Shown one piece after another: positions 8,312 through 44,800 of a stretch of 64,000 bases of DNA; position 1 is the first letter of the stretch; every line of letters begins with the position of its first letter. Origin of the DNA: Apostichopus japonicus (lineage: Eukaryota; Echinodermata; Holothuroidea; Aspidochirotida; Stichopodidae); contig NC_092573.1 in NCBI RefSeq assembly GCF_037975245.1, positions 19,166,265 through 19,230,264 on the forward strand, in the 5' to 3' direction. The position numbers and the translations under genes are program-made. Under the pieces are notes generated by a model, which did no database searches, was not told the origin of the DNA, and worked only from the letters and a program-made list of their open reading frames with translations.

Positions 8312-8655
8312 CATAGGCGTAGGAGCCTAATTTGATTTGGGGGGGCTGTAATGACTTGCCCGAAAAATGTAACCAAACTTTTTCGCGCGCTCCGCACGTT
8401 CAATATGTTGATGTGCATATCATATAGGGATTTATCGGTTATTACATCACATGCCAATAACATACAATCATTTTCCGTGTTATTACCTTTCCATATTGGT
8501 TAGAATTATTGGGGAAGTTGTTACAACAATAATGATAATAATAATATAAGTTTAACCATTCAAAAACACATTGCAATTTATTTTTCTTTCAATAGGTGCC
8601 CGAAATAATTCTCAGCATATTGCCCAAATTTTCACAACAATTTCCTATGCTTATG
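8312..8655. mobile_element. hAT-like MITE, 344 bp, 8-bp target duplication
   Basis: The left end reads CATAGGCGTAGGAGCC and the reverse complement of the right end reads CATAAGCATAGGAAAT, forming imperfect terminal inverted repeats. The flanks are CTATGAAG (8304-8311) and CTATGTAG (8656-8663), a 7/8 match fitting an aged 8-bp hAT duplication. There is no transposase reading frame, so it is non-autonomous. A related truncated copy lies at 62138-62395. Confidence 0.7.
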
Positions 8656-21489: not shown

Positions 21490-22074
21490 CTCAGACCCGA
21501 TTACAATGCTTAAAGTGCTTGTCCAAAGCATTCTTAAACCCATTCACAATACTTACAAGTACAACTTTCTAAGGCAAACCGTTCCACTCATTCACAACCC
21601 TATTAGAAAAAAAGTTATGCCGAATATTAATCGTACTTTGTGACTTTTGGAGTTTAAGACAATGACCTCTGGTACAACTACTATTAGCAAACATGAAAAA
21701 GTCAGAGAAGGATAAATTGTCAAAACCATACACACTCTTGAAAACCTGAATCAAGTCACCACGTAACCTCCTAAGCTCCAGTGTGGTGAGATTCAATAGT
21801 TGTAACCGTCTATAATAAGGAACACTCTTTAAGGAACTAATCATCCTAGTAGCCCTCCTCTAGACCTTTTTGAGTACTTCCTTATCAAAATATGGGTTCC
21901 AAGCCTGCACAGCATACTCCAGATGAAGCCTAACCAACTGCTTATAAAGCCTAACTACTATATCCTCTTTCAGAAAACTGCAGTTCCTCTTGGTCATACC
22001 TAAAACCCTATTACCTCTTTTAGCAGCTTCAAGACAATGTTTAGAAGGTTGCAGAGATGAGTCATGGTGCAATC
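21490..22074 (-). mobile_element. CR1/L2-type LINE relic, 3' part of reverse-transcriptase ORF
   Basis: Two adjacent frames read like the C-terminal part of a non-LTR retrotransposon ORF2. The upstream frame (22072-21863) has RLYKQLVRLHLEYAVQAWNP. The downstream frame (21844-21569) has LELRRLRGDLIQVFK, SSCTRGHCLKL and FFSNRVVNEWNGLP. These match the 'LVRPHLEY..QAW', 'RRLRGDLIQVFK' and 'FF.NRVVNEWNSLP' blocks of CR1/L2-like elements. A frameshift lies between them and a stop follows GLP, so it is dead. It is 5'-truncated, as usual for LINEs. Confidence 0.85.
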
Positions 22075-29890: not shown

Positions 29891-32800
29891 CTGAGAATTG
29901 ACCAAAGAAAGATAAAATATGTACAGAGGGGATATTTTATGAGAGTTTGAACAAATGACAGAAGAAAAGAAGAGGGAGATAAATGGGAAAGGATTGAGGT
30001 CAAAGGTTACAGAGGTCAAAGAAAAGAGGTCAAGTAAACAGGACTAAGGAGGGGCTTGAAGGAGGAAGGGTTAGAGGGAAGGGAAAGGATACAGATCAAA
30101 GTAACCAGGACTAGAGATGGGCTTGAAGGATGGCATTATTGGTAGCTATTTCTTAACATTGTTTTATAATTTTGACAATGTTAATTTATGTACCACTGAT
30201 AGAGGGCCTAATTTCGTTTATCTTTGAAAAAAGGCAGCAGAAGAAAGAACTGCCAGGTTATTAAAATAAAAGCTTCTAATTTGTATACAATTGCTTAAGG
30301 TTGGCTTCCTTGGTTAAAGTTAGATAAGGTTAAGGTTGCTTAAGGTTGACTCCCTCGATTAAGGTTGCTTAAGGTTGGCTTCCTTGGTTAAGGTTGCTTA
30401 AGGTTGGCTTAAATTGTTAAGGTTAGTTAAGGTTGCTTAAGGTTGGCTTCTTTGGTTAAGGTTGCTTAAGGTTGGCCTCCATTGTTAAGGTTGCTTAACA
30501 TTGGCTTCAATTGTTAAGGTTAAAGGTTGCTTAAGGTTGGCTTCCTTGGTTAAGGTTGTTTAAGGTTGGCTTACTTGGTTAAGCAGTTTGCAAACAGTTT
30601 CATACACCCTCCTTAAAAAAAAAAAAATTTTATACTTTTATTATAAATCAAAAGCATTAATTCCTACGATAATGCTTCTAAAGGAAACTGTTGAACAATG
30701 TTACTAGGAAATGTAACGGATGCAACAAAATATATTAGAGACAGGTGAAACATATACATTACAAGCAGATTTGTGTCACAAATATACAAGAAAAGGGTGC
30801 AGCAAATATAATACAAACAGATGTGCAACAAATACAAACAGATGGGTGTAATATGTATAAATATATATATATATATGACAAGAACAGGGTGCAGCAAATA
30901 TAATACAAACAGATGTGCAATAAATACAAACAGATGGGTGTAATATGTATAAATATATATATATATAAAATACAAGAAGAGGGTGCAGCAAATATAATAC
31001 AAACAGATGTGTAACAAATACAAACAGATGGGTGTAATATGTATAAATATATATATATATAATACAAGAACAGGGTGCAGCAAATATAATACAAACAGAT
31101 GTGCAATAAATACAAACAGATGGGTGTAATATGTATAAATATATATATATATAAAATACAAGAAGAGGGTGCAGCAAATATAATACAAACAGATGTGTAA
31201 CAAATACAAACAGATGGGTGTAATATGCATAAATATATATATATATATAATACAAGAACAGGGTGCAGCAAATATAATACAAACAGACGGGTGCAGCACC
31301 CATATATTACAAGCTGTTTCAAACATTATGACTCTAATCAACATTTAATTTAAAAACAAATTGATTCCAAATTAGGAAATTAATAAATGATATATTATTC
31401 TGCTCTAAAAATTTCATCGCCCAGCCACTTTTCCACACTATAACTGATCACATGTTCAAAGCAAATTGGACATATGAAAAAATTTCCTGACCTATTTCTT
31501 TCGTTTTTGGAAATGAAACTTGACTTATTCAGAGTAATGACTGAACAATGTTATGGGCTTTGAGTTTGGAATATAAAACAAAACTTGACCTAGCCAGCCT
31601 CATGGCTGTTTTAGGGTATTGTCATTTATTACAAAACAGGGTATTAAACATTGACCAAAATCAAATGAAAATTCAATCATTGCAAGAGCGGCTTTAATTG
31701 AAGTTTTGAATGGGCGGTTCACGAAAGATAACACAGGATGTCTAGAGTCCTCATTGGTATGTCTGCCCCGTTACTTACGAAACAAACCTGAACAGAGAGA
31801 AAAGGAACGTTGCCCTTACAAACTGTCCTTTACGATGACGACAGAAGTCAGTAATCAGCATAAAAGCAAATTCCTGCACTCTGGTAACATGCTCTCACAG
31901 AATCAGAAGAATCCTAACAAACTTTTCTTACCTTAGTTGGTTTTGACTCAAAAGCAGGCATCTTCCATTTAACGCCGACAACCGTTCCTCCAAACTGATC
32001 GTGAAAGAACATGGCGTGATCACCAAATGCATCCTGAAAATAAGAAACAATATTAGCACATTAATAATTTGTTTCATCGTTCGGAGATTACTCGATGAGA
32101 TGAAACATTTTCAGAGCGAGCAACAAGAGTTAACTCCCTCATATATCATCCCTCTCACAATGTGTTTTGCTTCTTTTCAGGTCAGAACCATGACTTTATT
32201 TGCCTTTAGTTATGCTTTGTCAGGTAAAATGCTGCTCTATTCAGGAAAAAGCAACATCAGTGGGTGGTTTCGGGGGATTATAAAAGAGCTCATCGTCGGC
32301 AAAGGAAATAATAATGAGGTTATCTTCATGACATCTAATTGGTCTGCCCTGAAGGTGATGAATTTGGAATATTCATTGGAAATATCACGCCTTCGCTTCT
32401 AGAAAAATCAGATCTTTTGAGAAATAACGTTTTTAAGTTATTACGGAAGGTGATGAATTTTGGAACGGTCATTTATTAGCATCACCCCATACACTTAAAA
32501 AATAAAAGAAAAGAAGACCTTCTTAAAGTTATCACCAGAACAGAATGCATTCTTTCAGCTAGTCTGATGTAGCCAACCAGTTTTCCTATGTATACACAAA
32601 AAGCAAACATGCATAATGGTTACTCTATGGAACACAGAAGAGATGCCCTGTGTATTTTCCCATTTGTCACAAGGGGAGGAGATAAGAGAGGGAACTGCCC
32701 AGTTTCTCAGCGTAGAGACTGAAACACATTAACCACCATATTGAAGCGATATATAATGATTTCTTGGACCCATCCTGTTTCACACGTGAATAATATTCAC

Positions 32801-35800
32801 GTCCCTTTCAAACAAAAAGGTTCATCGATTAGAAGGGAATATTTATATGAGTCATTTATTAATCCACACACTATGTACAGCCTACTAGAAAATGCTTAGT
32901 GAGAACTCACCCACCTCCCCCCCCCCCCGCCCTTCCTCCAACATTGATGAATCTATCAATTGTATGTCGATAAAAATTGTGGGTCAAAGGGCAGACGTGA
33001 ATGATTCTTTATTCCTACACTTCCCAGGACTCCAATTGACCCAATGCTACGACCCCCTGACAACCAACCAACCAACCACCCACCCACCCTGGCCTACCTG
33101 CTACACGGAAATGCTTCAAAACAAACCTTATAGGAGAATGCTCTTTGTAAAACAGGGAATATGTTTATTAATATTACCTTTAAATCATCCACGTACAACC
33201 TAACAGGATCAAGTCTATGATCACATCCGCTGCCTTTCTTATGAATATTACCTTTAAATCATCGACGTACAACCTAACAGGATCAAAGCCTATGATCTGG
33301 ATGACATCAGCTGCCTTTCTTATTAATATTACCTTTAAATCATCCACGTACAACCTAACAGGATCAAAGCCTATGATCTGGATGACATCAGCTGCCTTTC
33401 TTATTAATATTACCTTTAAATCATCGACGTACAACCTAACAGGATCAAAGTCTACGATCTGGATGACATCGGCTCCCTTTCTTATTAACATTACCTTTAA
33501 ATCATCGACGTACAACCTAACAGGATCAAAGCCTATGATCTGGATGACATCAGCTGCCTTTCTTATTAATATTACCTTTAAATCATCCACGTACAACCTA
33601 ACAGGATCAAAGCCTATGATCTGGATGACATCAGCTGCCTTTCTTATTAATATTACCTTTAAATCATCGACGTACAACCTAACAGGATCAAAGTCTATGA
33701 TCTGGATGATATCAGCTCCCTTTCTTATTAATATTACCTTTAAATCATCGACATACAACCTAACAGGATCAAAGTCTATGATCTGGATGACATCAGCTGC
33801 CTTTCCTGACACCGTCTCTCTCATCCTCAACGTGGCATCCTCCTTGGCATCCACCCCCTCTCGTCTTCTGGTGGCGACTTTCCGGTTGATGTGAATGACG
33901 GCGTCGTAACCCTCAATCGGAGGGCGAAAGATTTGCTGAGGATCGGAAATAAATATTTAAATGTCACACAACTGCAAGCAGACAGCGTCTGTCTGCTTCC
34001 TAGTGAATGGTTTATAATAATAATCATAATTCTCAGTTCTTATATAGCGCAACTTACAATAAAGTCTGTACTTAACCCTGGTCATTGGTAACTTGTCACA
34101 CCTACACACCAAAGTGTGCACAATTCAAACAATCTCTCCTTCGGCACCACAGTGCACCACAGCCACGTGTCCCCAGGGGGACTTCCCATAGGGTGCAGCC
34201 ACAAACCGGCGCGCGCAACTATATTTACAAGTCACCTCGCAAGTCCCCATTTATACACCTGGGTGAAAAGAGGCAATGGAGATAAAGTGCCTGGCCCAAG
34301 GACACAACGCAATGATCTGGCCAGGGCTCGAACCTGTAATCCTTAGATCACAAGTCCACTGCCTTAACCACTTGACCACAACGCCCTCCACATCATGATA
34401 GGTATGTATTAGGTAGGATCACAGAGTTGGACCATGTTATATGTGTAAGAAGAGTCCCCCCCCCCCAAATTCTCTCAGAAGACATCTATGTGTCGGCATA
34501 CATGAAAAGCTACGAGGATATCACAGTTGTAACAAATTTTTTTTGTGATTGATCATGTCCTCACAACTCGCTACGATACAGCTAGCAGTCAAAGGAACAT
34601 TTCACAACTGCTCGATTCGGCCTCCCATTTGGCTGAGACATTGAAGGAGCAGACACTTACCTTGACCACTTCTGGAGATAAGTCTTCCAAACATTGTCCT
34701 TCGAGACACTTTAGTGATTCTTGCGATAGGATTTGCAATCTACGTAGCACCTGACCAGGGAAGTAAAAGTTTTACATGGTTATTTTTAATCAACAAATTG
34801 TATTGCTAGAAGGATTTTCAATAACCTACTAAATTTTAACAGTTTATTGGTTAACCAATGTTAAAGCTATTAAGTATGGTAGCACCAATGTAAATATTAT
34901 TAACTAGAAAAAAAAAACTCAAGAACAGCAACTGTCAGGGAAATATGGGCTGGATAGCTTGTTTAGCAAAAGATATTTAACCTATGGTGTGACTGGTCTG
35001 AATTCCATTTCTAGACCATATTATTCCTTATTAATTATAAAAAGGAAAATAAATTCAAACTCTTCACTATACTGAGTAACATTTTTATCCTACTACCCAA
35101 ACACCTGAGATCAACAATCCGAAACCCTATTTTATTCAAGTCAAAAACCTTTCTTTTGCTCTTGTAATCAGCAAAACTGCAACCTGCAAAATGGAAATTT
35201 ACTTATAAGGCTTACACGGTCTTAACCAATTTGATTCTACTCGGCTATCACCAGTCTGTTGAATAATTCTAACAAGAACAAAATTGAAACATTAATATAG
35301 AATTTTTTTTTAAATTTCATTTCAGATGAACTTTTCCATGCTTTTTGAATAGGAAGGAAATAGGATACTTTGGGCAGTCAAATAAATTAGTTATTCTAGT
35401 ACTTTTTAGACAGGAATATTCAACATTTTACTCTGTTCTACTGATTTGCTACTCACCAGTTTGGTGGGTAGCGACTGCGTCCACAGAGAGTTCCTCTCCG
35501 TTGGAGTTACGATGCACATGTTTGGTAACAAGCTTCTGTTGTTGGAGAAATGTTGACGAATCTCTTCCAGATCAGACCCTTCAGAGAAGATCAAACAAAA
35601 GTGTTTTAAAATCTTGAACATTATCCCGGATAACAAAGAGGAATAGATGAACAAAATATCACCCGGTGGCCACACCAGAATTTCAATGAGACGTGGTGCC
35701 GATTACCAGAATGAAAAAAGTAGTGAAATGCCATTAGAGGAACATTCCAGTGGCAGAAAAAAGTGATGTTTGCTTAGCTATCAACTTTCTCTGTATTTAG

Positions 35801-38800
35801 ACTTTCGTCAAAAAGCAACTTGTTTGTAAGCATATTATCTTCCTCATTGAATACTTAAATTAAAAAGAAAAACAGAGACTTTCCAGCAAACTTGCCACAA
35901 TGACATTCCTAATACTGCTGTTGCTAGGTGCATTATTAAACAAAGTTACTACAAATTTCAAAAATTTGTTTCATCATAATTCAAAATGGATCATGCAGAA
36001 AAATATCCAGAAACTTTAGAAAAAATGACATTTAGCCATCTTCAGCTACTTCCTCATCCGTCATTCACAATTCATCTACTATTGGAAAATTTCTGACAGA
36101 TAAACTACCTTGAAGTTCTGAGTTGAGATTCACAATCAGAGGTTGATTTGCCCAATCAAAGGAACTTAACAGGTGAAGAAATCTCTGGAATCCAGAAATT
36201 AATGTCCTGATAAATGAAAAAAAATCTATATATAATATTCATCGCAGAGACTTTTTTATGTTATTCAACTACACATTGCTTATTTGGTTAATATTTAAGA
36301 TTAAAACATAGAGAGGTTAGAATCTCAAAAATCTCAAAAAGTGGAGTGTATAGCCTAGTGGTTAACGCCGGCGTCTCCCAGTCATGAGATCCCCGGTTCG
36401 ATTCCCCGCCGACAGCAATGTGTGTCGTCTGGCAAGGGTGTTGTTCAATAACAACTTCCCGACATGGACGTTAAATGGATGTGTGCCGAGAGATTGGCTT
36501 CGGTCAGCTTGCGAGTCTACAAGCCTCCATGGCTTCTTTCGCGAGTTCCTACTTGCGGGAAGATCACATATACATACATACATACATACATACATACATA
36601 CACCCATACATACATACATACATACATACATACATACATACATACATACATACATACATACATACATACATACATACATACATACATACATACATACATA
36701 CATACATACATACATACATAATTACAGGCAGAGATGTAACCATTCAATAAAGTACATCGCAGAATTTCTGAGACAAGACTAAACATTACTGCTTCGTAAT
36801 TTTATTTTCCCCACAGGGTTATACACTCACATTGACCCAAGATACAATATAATGTTCCTATATCCATATCAGATCCATTATAAGAAACAACTCCTCCCTT
36901 CCCTGCCCGCCTCCCATTCCCCACCCCCCCCCACACACAAAAAGCAGAAAATCTATGTGAAGACTTACTGATACTGACATCAGGTATTTGTTAATGTCAG
37001 ATCAACCTTTTCCATTTAAAATTTGCTTCACAGGTTTAAGAGTCCAGTAATATTTCAAAGATAGTCAAAGTATAAAATAGTATAGTATCTACCACTTACC
37101 AAGGAGGGGTGAAATAGTAACGTATCTACCACTTACCAAGGAGGGGTGAAATAGTAAGGTATCTACCACTTACAGAGGAGGGGTGAAATAGTAAGGTATG
37201 ATAGGTATCTACCACTTACCTAGGAGGGGTGAAATAGTAAGGTATCTACCACTTACAGAGGAGGGGTGAAATAATAAGGTATCTACCACTTACCGAGGAG
37301 GGGGGAAAAAGTAAGGTATCTACCACTTACCGAGGAGGGGTGAAATAGTAAGGTATCTACCACTTACCGAGGAGGGGTGAATGGAGCTGGATGAAGGTAC
37401 AGAGATGCTACCAGCAGTTCGACAGCTTCATCAGGGAAATGGTCAGACAATAGCTGAGATGCAACCCAGCGCTTGGCAAGACGAGCTGTCAGTCCAAAGC
37501 TCTTATGTTCCTGATAAACTCTGAAAGAGAAGAACAGTTGGCATTGAAAAAGTCATCCATTTTCCAATGAAATCTCAACACAAGCCATTACTACATATGA
37601 TCAGTGGTTTTTGAAGAAAGAGTTACAGATAGAATGAAACAAATAACAACAGTATTAAATGCAGGCTGAAATACTTCTGTCTAAATACATCACATATTTG
37701 CTGAGCATTTTCTAAGGTAAAATAATCCCCAAAAGAGACCATCCATTTGGAATGTGAATGCAATCTTCTGAGCATTTCCAAAGTAAACATAATAAACCAC
37801 ATTTCTAACTGGTCGACAGCAAAGGTGTACTGTGGTGGGGTCATAGTTAGTGTTACAGCTAGTGGCCTAGGCATAGCTGCTAGGACATTTAACTGTAGCA
37901 TGTGTTTGTTGCTACAGTATCACAACAGATCTCTAACACTATGACACAAATGTTTACTGCTTTAATACACTAAGCCTATCACATTTGCCTTTCCACTTAC
38001 AGATAAATCTAGGCCCTGCTTTACAAGCATGAAAGAAAATCTGGGCTGAAAATTTTTATTTGTCATCTATAATATATGCAAATTACCATTCGATTGCAAC
38101 ATTGTTGGCGAGATGAAAACTTCAATAAATTGGATATTTGTAACAGTGCACAAGATACAGAAAGGGGAACATACATGGACTCCAGTGTGGTAGCTTTGAT
38201 TTTTAGTACTTGAATGCAAACAGTTTTTTCAAAAATGACGTATATTTTTACCCGTATATGGAATTTGTAAATCTCGGCAGTGAAACCGTCCGCTTCTCAA
38301 GAACCACAGACGCTTCGTTTTCTTGGAGGACTAGATGGCCCAGATTAGACCGACTCTCCTTGAGCAGGCCAAGTTCCTTCACATGAGCCACTTCGATCCT
38401 GAAGGCAAAACCTCCCTGACGATAGATCAAATATAGTGGATTGTGCTTTTGTCATTCACTTGTCGAAGCAAGTTGTTTATCAAAAAATACACATTAAAGG
38501 GTGTGAAGACTTGCGCAAAAAGAAACGCCTAATGCCGGTAATTTGACCTAGTTTCGAATGAGGTGTAACAGAAGTGTTAAACACCACTGTCGATCCCAGA
38601 AAATACACACACAGCTTGCTACCGTCGGTAATAAGACACTAGTGTACAGTCAGTACATACAGCTGCGGTCAATACCCACAGCACAGTATACAAACGATAC
38701 AGCGATGGACATCTCAGGTCCAGCTAAAGATAACAAGGTTTCACGTTTCATTACTATCTGCATTTTGTAGCGACACTAACAAAACGACACTTGCAAGCAA

Positions 38801-41800: not shown

Positions 41801-44800
41801 CGCGCCCCCGACCAATACCCCTAGCTTCACCACTGGTTCTGAATGCGTGTAACCGAAATATGTAGAATACCGGGTTTGTGCGGTAGAAAGGATCGGTGAA
41901 GTGGAATTATGCGTGACGGAAAAATAACAATTTAGTTAAGAGACAACAATGTTTGGCGTATTAACGATGCTCACCTCTGGAGAATCAGCATTTGGACCTT
42001 TCTCTAGGACATTAAATGAATATTCATCATCGAGCAGGAGGCCAAAGGTCAGACTTGTCAAGCTGGTGTAGTTCACGATTGTACCATATACAGGCCACTG
42101 TAAAAGATGTGTGAAAAAGAGGTAAAATAACAGAGTATGAGCTGATGATGTGGTAACGTCCAAAATACAACAGCATCTCTTAGCTGACGGAACGGGAGAT
42201 AAGAAAAAAGGAGAAAAGATATGGATTCATACAAGAAATATTTGATAAAAATATTTAACACTTCCATATATCACACTTCCATATATCCTTTTATATGGAT
42301 TCATACAAGAAATATTTGAATAAAAAATACTGAACACCTCCATATCCTTTGAGGAAATGAAAAGTGACAAGTGAACCTTGAATGGTAAATTTGTTCAGAC
42401 CCCGCCACCCCCCCCCCCACCGAATGAAAAGAAGAAAAAGAAAAAGAAAAAAAGTTTATTGTTATATAAGACAGAACATGAAATTCTATGTTTAAAACAT
42501 AGATTGTTACATCAGTTCCAACAGAACGCAAACTTCTTGTTACCGTGGGAACTTCCAGTGGTTTCATAGCGATGGTCCTTATTCTATTTCCAAGGGCTTT
42601 TTCCATCAAAGTGACAAAATGGTTCAAGATAGGAAACAGGGTGAGACCCTTTCTATCTATAAGAGCATCTTCCAACTTGAGTTTCTTGCAGTAGCTTTTG
42701 AACCAAGTGACATCTTTTATCCTGAGAAATATAAAATAACTTTGCTTTGGTATCATGAAAAGTACCTGACTTCTTTCTACCGGACATAATATTAACTGTC
42801 ACAGCAGGGGAAATAATAAATGCTATATTTTCCCATTTGTGACTATAGTGTTGTTCAAGGAAAACATAGATCGATTTGTGTACAGCAATACTAGTTTATT
42901 AGGCCATTTTTTTCTTCTTCTTTAGATGGCGCTACACCACAAAGTATATCTTGAGGAGGGTGCTTAACAATAATATCGAAACGTTACAGTGACTATCTCT
43001 GATGGCATTTTAATCCATATAACAGAAATGTGTGACTTTCAGTAGTAAGTGATTACAGAAAACAATTCTGAAATGGTAAAGAAATTTCAGAGCTAGGATG
43101 GAATTTAGGCTTATTTAGCCCTAAGAACTTTATGGCAAGTACAGAGTTGCTTTAATGCAATTGGTTGCATTGCCATGGTAATCCCACCTAGACCAGCCCA
43201 AACATGAGGGTGGCTTGGTGGCTTCTTGCATTGATGTCACCAGAGATATTTTACACCTGGAGAAACTTGGTTCCTTTGGTGGTATAAATGAATATCAACA
43301 GATTTTTCTTGGCTTTAAACAGTTTCAAGAAGATGCATGTAGGCTTTAAGCCTAATACAGAGTACCTAATAGGCAATTAATTGGAATGTAAGATTCGAGG
43401 CAGAATCTTTAGCTACCAGCTCATCAAATGCAGTAAATTCTTGAAAGTTTGCACTGATATTTATCCTAGCTATAAATAAGAGAGATGATTTGCTTTAAAG
43501 GGAAACACTCACTGAATGACTTGATCATACTTCCTACTGAAAGGCACCGAAGTCATACAAAGCAACTGGAAGCTATCCACAGAGGAATCACTAAGGTAAC
43601 CAAGGGTGCATGAAGCTTCAAACTTGACCTGTGCAAGGTAAAACAGCAAAAGACAAACATAGTTAAATTGACTAAAAAACATTGCAGGCTTCGAAAAAAG
43701 TAAGGATGGGTTTTAACAGATCACAGAGCAAACAGAAAGAGTCCAAATGACAAATCATATCAATAATTAATCAATTTATCCATTAATCAATCAATCAATT
43801 AATGTTACCTGTTCATAGGTATTTTTCTTCATCTCTGCGCATAAGTTGAGAAAACCAGTCTGATCGATAAAAACTACCTCATACGCTGAATGGAAATCGT
43901 CTATAGAGGGCAGTGTGCTAGAATCCACTCCTTCTGGATTCAGAGCGATGCCATGTTCTGTCCAGTCACTTTGAGCTATCGGGAGAACAAATGAAAATTA
44001 ACTGATGACATGATTATCGAAGGTGTCCAATAAGGTCGTCGCTTTCTATCTCAGGTTAATCTTAAAGAAGACCTAAAGCATGAGTTTATTGTGTACACTA
44101 ATGGGGATATTATAAGCAAGAGTTTTGTGTGTACACTACATGGGATATTACAAGCATGAGTTTAGTGTGTACACTAAATGGGGATATTATAGAGAGTAAC
44201 CAACCCTACACCATTTGTAGTTTCTCTCAAGTTATTCCAACCCTCAACCTCTCCCCTCCCCCCACACTACCCCCACCCACGGCTATCCCTAATCCACAAT
44301 GACACCTACGATTTCAGTAAAGTTAAGATTATTCTATCATGCCTGGACTTACCCAGATAATGCAGAGTACTCCTGACGATTTGCTGTGTTGTCATTCGTC
44401 GACTCAGTTTCTTCTCTTGCAGCAGGTAAGAAATGAGCATCGCTGCTAAGAAGGTGGAAAAACTGCCTGGACCCTGCAAGAATAGTCAAAAAAGATGTAT
44501 CGTTACTTCTCTACTACTATATATTTATTTTTCTCTACTATACTCCAGATGAGATATCATTTTCAGTGGTAATAACGTATCAAGCAAATTTACCCGTATT
44601 ATACATATTTTGCGATGCTAGGGAAATTTCTCCCTGCTTGGTTTGAGTCAAAATATTTACAAGTTGAAACTTTTGACACAATAGGGTAAGAGGGTGGCTT
44701 AGCTGGATGAAATGCAACCTAATTTCAATGCTCATGGCAGTGTTGTGCACAGGATTGCAATGCTAGGGGAAGGAGGGAACAACTAAATTTTCCCTGACTG

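Follow-up and report, generated by a model that had tools for sequence, protein, structure and literature searches.

Exon-donor minisatellites in NOL6 of Apostichopus japonicus: a probable mutational by-product tolerated by splicing

On the minus strand of the window (the whole 64,000-nucleotide stretch of DNA analysed here) lies NOL6, which represents the Nrap/Utp22 family in animals, and we show that one of its exon-intron junctions is repeated as an 81-bp exon-donor minisatellite with seven full-length copies plus a shorter eighth one (33177..33805, minus strand; hereafter array 1). Overall, this array looks like a recurrent mutational by-product tolerated by splicing, not a switch specific to NOL6. 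We consider it likely that array 1 is blind to reading frame and would be tolerated because the first donor is used.

The amplified NOL6 junction

Joined exon translations matched human NOL6 (7mq8_NH) with an E value of 2.9e-152, homology to NOL6 extended along the gene, and the Pfam domain Nrap_D6 was matched in both exons flanking array 1. NOL6 is single copy in the 671.6-Mb assembly, where all 18 protein matches fell in one locus and no retrocopy or paralogue showing the spliced junction was found. The exon that runs into the array (QIFRPPIEGYDAV...FDPVRLYVDDLK; 33738..33935, minus strand) has AG before 33935 and GT after 33738, and its last 63 nt constitute copy 1. It matched Nrap_D6 (2.1e-5) at profile positions 2-59, as well as human NOL6 residues 1000-1062 (E = 0.006). 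The next exon, placed by Nrap_D6 and its boundaries, is 102 nt long (31932..32033, minus strand), starts with DAFGDHAMFFHDQFGG (DAFGDHAMFF) and matched Nrap_D6 (6e-6) at profile positions 60-91; its acceptor at 32033/32034 reads TTTTCAG|GATGCATTT.

When donor 1 is joined to this acceptor without an insert, Nrap_D6 positions 59 and 60 meet with no gap, and by this homology the first copy is the true exon end. One match to human NOL6 also continues across the joined junction (query 659-868; the printed alignment is incomplete). Because the flanking exons match Nrap_D6 2-59 and 60-91 and the human match spans the junction, the no-insert join from donor 1 is, as far as homology can tell, the ancestral form. 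The original prediction was right about the gene, the exon-intron junction, its amplified donor, the DAFGDHAMFF exon next to it and the acceptor at 32033/32034, with coordinates correct to within one base.

TRF reported a period of 81, 7.2 copies, 95% matches, 0% indels and a score of 1069 at 33219-33805, and as a repeat array 1 is far beyond chance. On the minus strand it holds eight AAAG|GTAAT donors, all with identical words and the first at the exon end, whose first intron bases are 33737, 33656, 33575, 33494, 33413, 33332, 33251 and 33177. Donors 1-7 (33251..33737) keep an exact spacing of 81 bp and donor 8 follows donor 7 by 74 bp, so the evenly spaced seven and the shortened eighth that had been predicted are real. 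The same word occurs once more on the minus strand of the window, at 8486. A full unit consists of the 63-nt exon end followed by 13 bases from the start of the intron and by GAAAG, a motif that is also present just upstream of the repeated exon part. Repetition of the exon end was thus correctly foreseen, but its length is 63 nt (68 nt with GAAAG) and not the ~57 nt proposed. In a DNA search of the 671.6-Mb assembly, which skips very common words, the array-1 locus was the sole candidate.

Copies 1-7 show variation in nine of their 81 columns. Copy 3 is identical to copy 6, and copies 2-3-4 resemble 5-6-7, since copies three units apart show 1.7 differences versus 3.6 between neighbours, a result matched by 7% of orders; this suggests the duplication of a block of three. 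The only acceptor-like sequence in the unit is AATAAGAAAG|G, which, judged by eye, is without a pyrimidine tract. The array-1 donor is weak, scoring 7.5 on a position weight matrix (PWM) built from 16 other NOL6 donors that were entered by hand.

It had been predicted that the downstream donors would all splice in frame to the next exon. This holds for donors 2-7, which add 81 to 486 nt in frame and stop-free, but not for donor 8. Because copy 8 (33177..33233 up to its donor, minus strand) is 7 nt shorter, the extension from donor 8 is 560 nt long (mod 3 = 2) and out of frame, reading into a TAA that lies before the donor; there are thus six extra in-frame donors, not seven. Copies 1-7 differ by six replacement and three synonymous changes, which fits no protein constraint (P = 0.49), and the probability of meeting no stop across these nine changes is 0.77. 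The open frame of array 1 is therefore no evidence of coding, and being in frame is a one-in-three matter.

Two side observations concern translations across the array. Read-through of 33252-33932 (minus strand) matched Pfam PA14 (1.4e-7) at only 24 of 147 profile positions, all inside the repeats, probably a short VRLYVDD-like motif counted repeatedly. The opposite strand contains a 236-aa stop-free frame (33184-33894, plus strand), as expected because one open unit repeats.

Further arrays in NOL6 and across the assembly

A second donor array in NOL6, absent from the original prediction, has a 37-bp unit and eight GTAAGT donors (37075..37381, minus strand; array 2), located at 37367, 37330, 37293, 37256, 37219, 37173, 37136 and 37099, with one unit lengthened to 46 bp. 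It begins in the last 12 nt of an upstream NOL6 exon (VYQEHKSFGLTARLAKRW...LHPAPFTPP(R); codon-aligned part 37368..37519, minus strand) corresponding to human NOL6 residues 844-894. Any array-2 donor after the first leads to a TAA directly after the exon, and therefore donor 1 must still serve there if NOL6 protein is made, although one later donor outscores it on the PWM (11.3 vs 10.2).

We also looked for tandem triplets of splice-site words in the assembly. GGTAAGT triplets (three words with gaps of 15-45) gave 837 matches versus 1035 for the reversed word, GGTGAGT triplets 1232 versus 894, and acceptor-like TTTCAGG triplets 365 versus 195; an over-representation of donor words in tandem triplets was rejected, being inconsistent among words. 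On contigs C1 and C2 we counted, by eye, 15 GGTAAGT arrays and 14 arrays of the reversed word, three of the latter being simple TGAA/TGGA repeats.

Seventeen GGTAAGT arrays among the matches listed were examined individually. The first donor closes an exon-like frame, as judged by eye, in nine of them, and homology supports the exon in five of the 17, all within these nine. Ten peptides from ten of the 17 loci were submitted to Pfam. Matches were to TIL at L037 (1.1e-9, stopping 11 residues before the donor), Glyco_transf_21 at L045 (6.5e-11), a tyrosine phosphatase at L049 (1.7e-10; PDB 2.1e-10) and, below the Pfam cut-off, TLDc at L053 (3.4e-4; PDB mEAK-7, 2e-8), while the kinase at L043 reached only 0.25 in Pfam and 4.4e-4 with STK33 in PDB. 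The PDB match reaches the last residue before the donor in L043, L049 and L053. Pfam returned no match for the five other donor-side peptides (L039, L042, L046, L047 and L050), L050 had no PDB match either, and four of the nine exon-like arrays have no homology support. As a separate observation, L038, L040 and L041 on C1 share the 18-bp unit GTAAGTATATGGACAATG and represent a dispersed satellite family in which GTAAGT is present by coincidence.

Read-through stops within 33 nt in all five homology-supported GGTAAGT arrays. Three of the other four exon-like arrays stop as well (after 9, 18 and 39 nt), and the fourth, L050 (33 bp), stays open and preserves the frame. Altogether, two of 11 junction arrays (seven supported by homology and four by eye, both NOL6 arrays included) are in frame and open, compared with 22% of duplications simulated over NOL6 donors, a simulation that placed one of the 16 donors wrongly and left one out. 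Against a 25% background of true donors, which derives from one to two of eight non-array GGTAAGT words in the window (that at 44352 an exon by eye only) together with general gene numbers, 5/17 is unremarkable (P = 0.43) and 9/17 represents an excess (P = 0.012) if all nine by-eye arrays are real; in that case arrays may prefer donors. Extrapolating from four homology-supported arrays on 54.2 of 671.6 Mb gives, roughly, about 50 such arrays when a single donor word and a single range of spacings are considered.

On the acceptor side, we took the first 20 TTTCAGG arrays among the matches listed and submitted one downstream peptide from each of ten of these 20 loci to Pfam, where one of the ten matched (RAB3A-like_C, 6.7e-15; PDB support 5.8e-4). 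Specifically, at L057 (C1:17063200-17067700) the last TTTCAG of a 34-50 bp array leads into an exon matching a Rabin8-like C-terminal domain. L058 appeared exon-like by eye and its peptide had no match. Based on the L057 homology, acceptor-junction arrays exist, and the ratios of 5/17 for donors and 1/20 for acceptors cannot fairly be set side by side, because a donor word is more often a true site and the screening differed.

Origin of the arrays and use of their donors

The sequence shows tandem duplication of a short segment that crosses the exon end and takes in the first 13 bases of the intron, after which array 1 probably grew by whole units, perhaps once by a three-unit block. The same accident took place independently at a second NOL6 exon and in other genes of the genome, where homology establishes five such exons. 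Splicing would use the first, exon-proximal donor, in which case the frame of the unit would be irrelevant, because the later copies would be intronic passengers. In this genome, minisatellites probably arise largely irrespective of splice sites and survive wherever the first donor still functions. The unit of array 1 is, by coincidence, open and divisible by three, which would make leaky use of donors 2-7 less harmful than elsewhere, and such leaky use need have no function.

Some observations count against use of the first donor. In classical in vitro work, identical tandem donors favour the intron-proximal copy; moreover, the array-1 donor is weak, and a later donor of array 2 scores above the first. 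A further counterpoint to the later copies being passengers is that two arrays on donors of one gene are somewhat unlikely by random placement (about 0.02-0.03, a rough estimate using 18 donors, several of whose positions are off by 1-2 bases and of which only the number entered). In-frame longer NOL6 isoforms are possible but unsupported. It is rather unlikely, in our judgement, that exon-donor minisatellites form a genome-wide class within which array 1 belongs to a minority whose leaky donors 2-7 yield longer NOL6 isoforms graded by copy number.

The original prediction went further in proposing that copy number modulates protein length. If donors 2-7 were used appreciably, Nrap domain 6 would gain an insert of 27 to 162 residues, with copy number setting the length. 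The frame is indeed open, the 81-bp spacing is exact through donor 7, all eight donor words are identical, and each donor restores the same residues beside the next exon. There is also a precedent in the human IFI6 (6-16) minisatellite, two downstream units of which were reported as donors (Turri 1995, as summarised in PMC4526556). In both cases a minisatellite supplies several splice donors, but use of downstream donors is documented for IFI6 and hypothetical for NOL6. We nonetheless find such a switch unlikely, and the proposal unsupported, as the insert would fall within a conserved domain, the array-1 copies show no coding constraint, open in-frame units are no more frequent than expected at random (2/11 vs 22%), and array 2 and the five other arrays, which hit a stop on read-through, cannot act in this way.

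By analogy with human ABCA7, array length could instead alter recognition of the next exon with no switching among donors, which we regard as improbable. The 25-bp-unit VNTR in ABCA7 intron 18 includes the exon 18 donor (PMC5954066); retention of one unit accounts for 2 +/- 1% of isoforms, and skipping of the next exon (exon 19, in frame) rises with VNTR length. As in NOL6, the array begins at the donor of the exon and each of its units could serve as a donor, and the next NOL6 exon (102 nt) is in frame like the skipped ABCA7 exon; as with array 2, retention of one unit would shift the frame. However, the ABCA7 unit starts at GT, whereas NOL6 units include exon sequence, and the ABCA7 alleles are C-rich and span hundreds to thousands of bp. 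Skipping in NOL6 would, furthermore, cost 34 residues of Nrap_D6, and next-exon skipping, measured in ABCA7 (PMC5954066), is hypothetical in NOL6. Finally, that array 1 is an assembly artefact is highly improbable given that its copies differ at nine positions, copy 8 carries its own deletion, and degenerate arrays of like design are found at other assembly loci.

Relation to known repeats and wider relevance

Minisatellites that carry donors, tandem repeats at gene boundaries, and intron gain through tandem duplication have all been described. In human segmental duplications, exon-intron boundaries can carry tandem repeats that affect splicing (PMC2812944); these resemble the NOL6 arrays in being boundary repeats able to change splicing, but they vary between recent paralogues and are reported to form new introns, while NOL6 is single copy. 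Intron gain by tandem duplication (PMC4974935) likewise involves tandem duplication across an exon-intron boundary, whereas in NOL6 an existing donor is multiplied and no new intron is implied. Earthworm metallothionein repeats are unrelated, since they lie within the first intron. Among the papers listed by our literature search, which covered few subscription papers, none dealt with exon-donor minisatellites as a genome-wide set in any invertebrate.

In human genes, donor-bearing minisatellites have been described singly; here they occur at several unrelated exons, two of them in NOL6. Such a genome provides natural tests of how the spliceosome chooses among many near-identical donors, and most such arrays must resolve to the first donor, or else the protein is lost. 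For gene prediction, the arrays call for caution, as a NOL6 model could be extended by as many as 162 false residues through the open 81-bp array.

An Rfam scan of the window gave no match. By eye, a SINE-like sequence (GTTGTGTCCTTGGGCCAGGCACTTTATC...) lies at 34100-34400, within the intron that immediately precedes the exon at 33738..33935, and open frames at 21569-22072 (minus strand) resemble a fragment of a reverse-transcriptase-type element.
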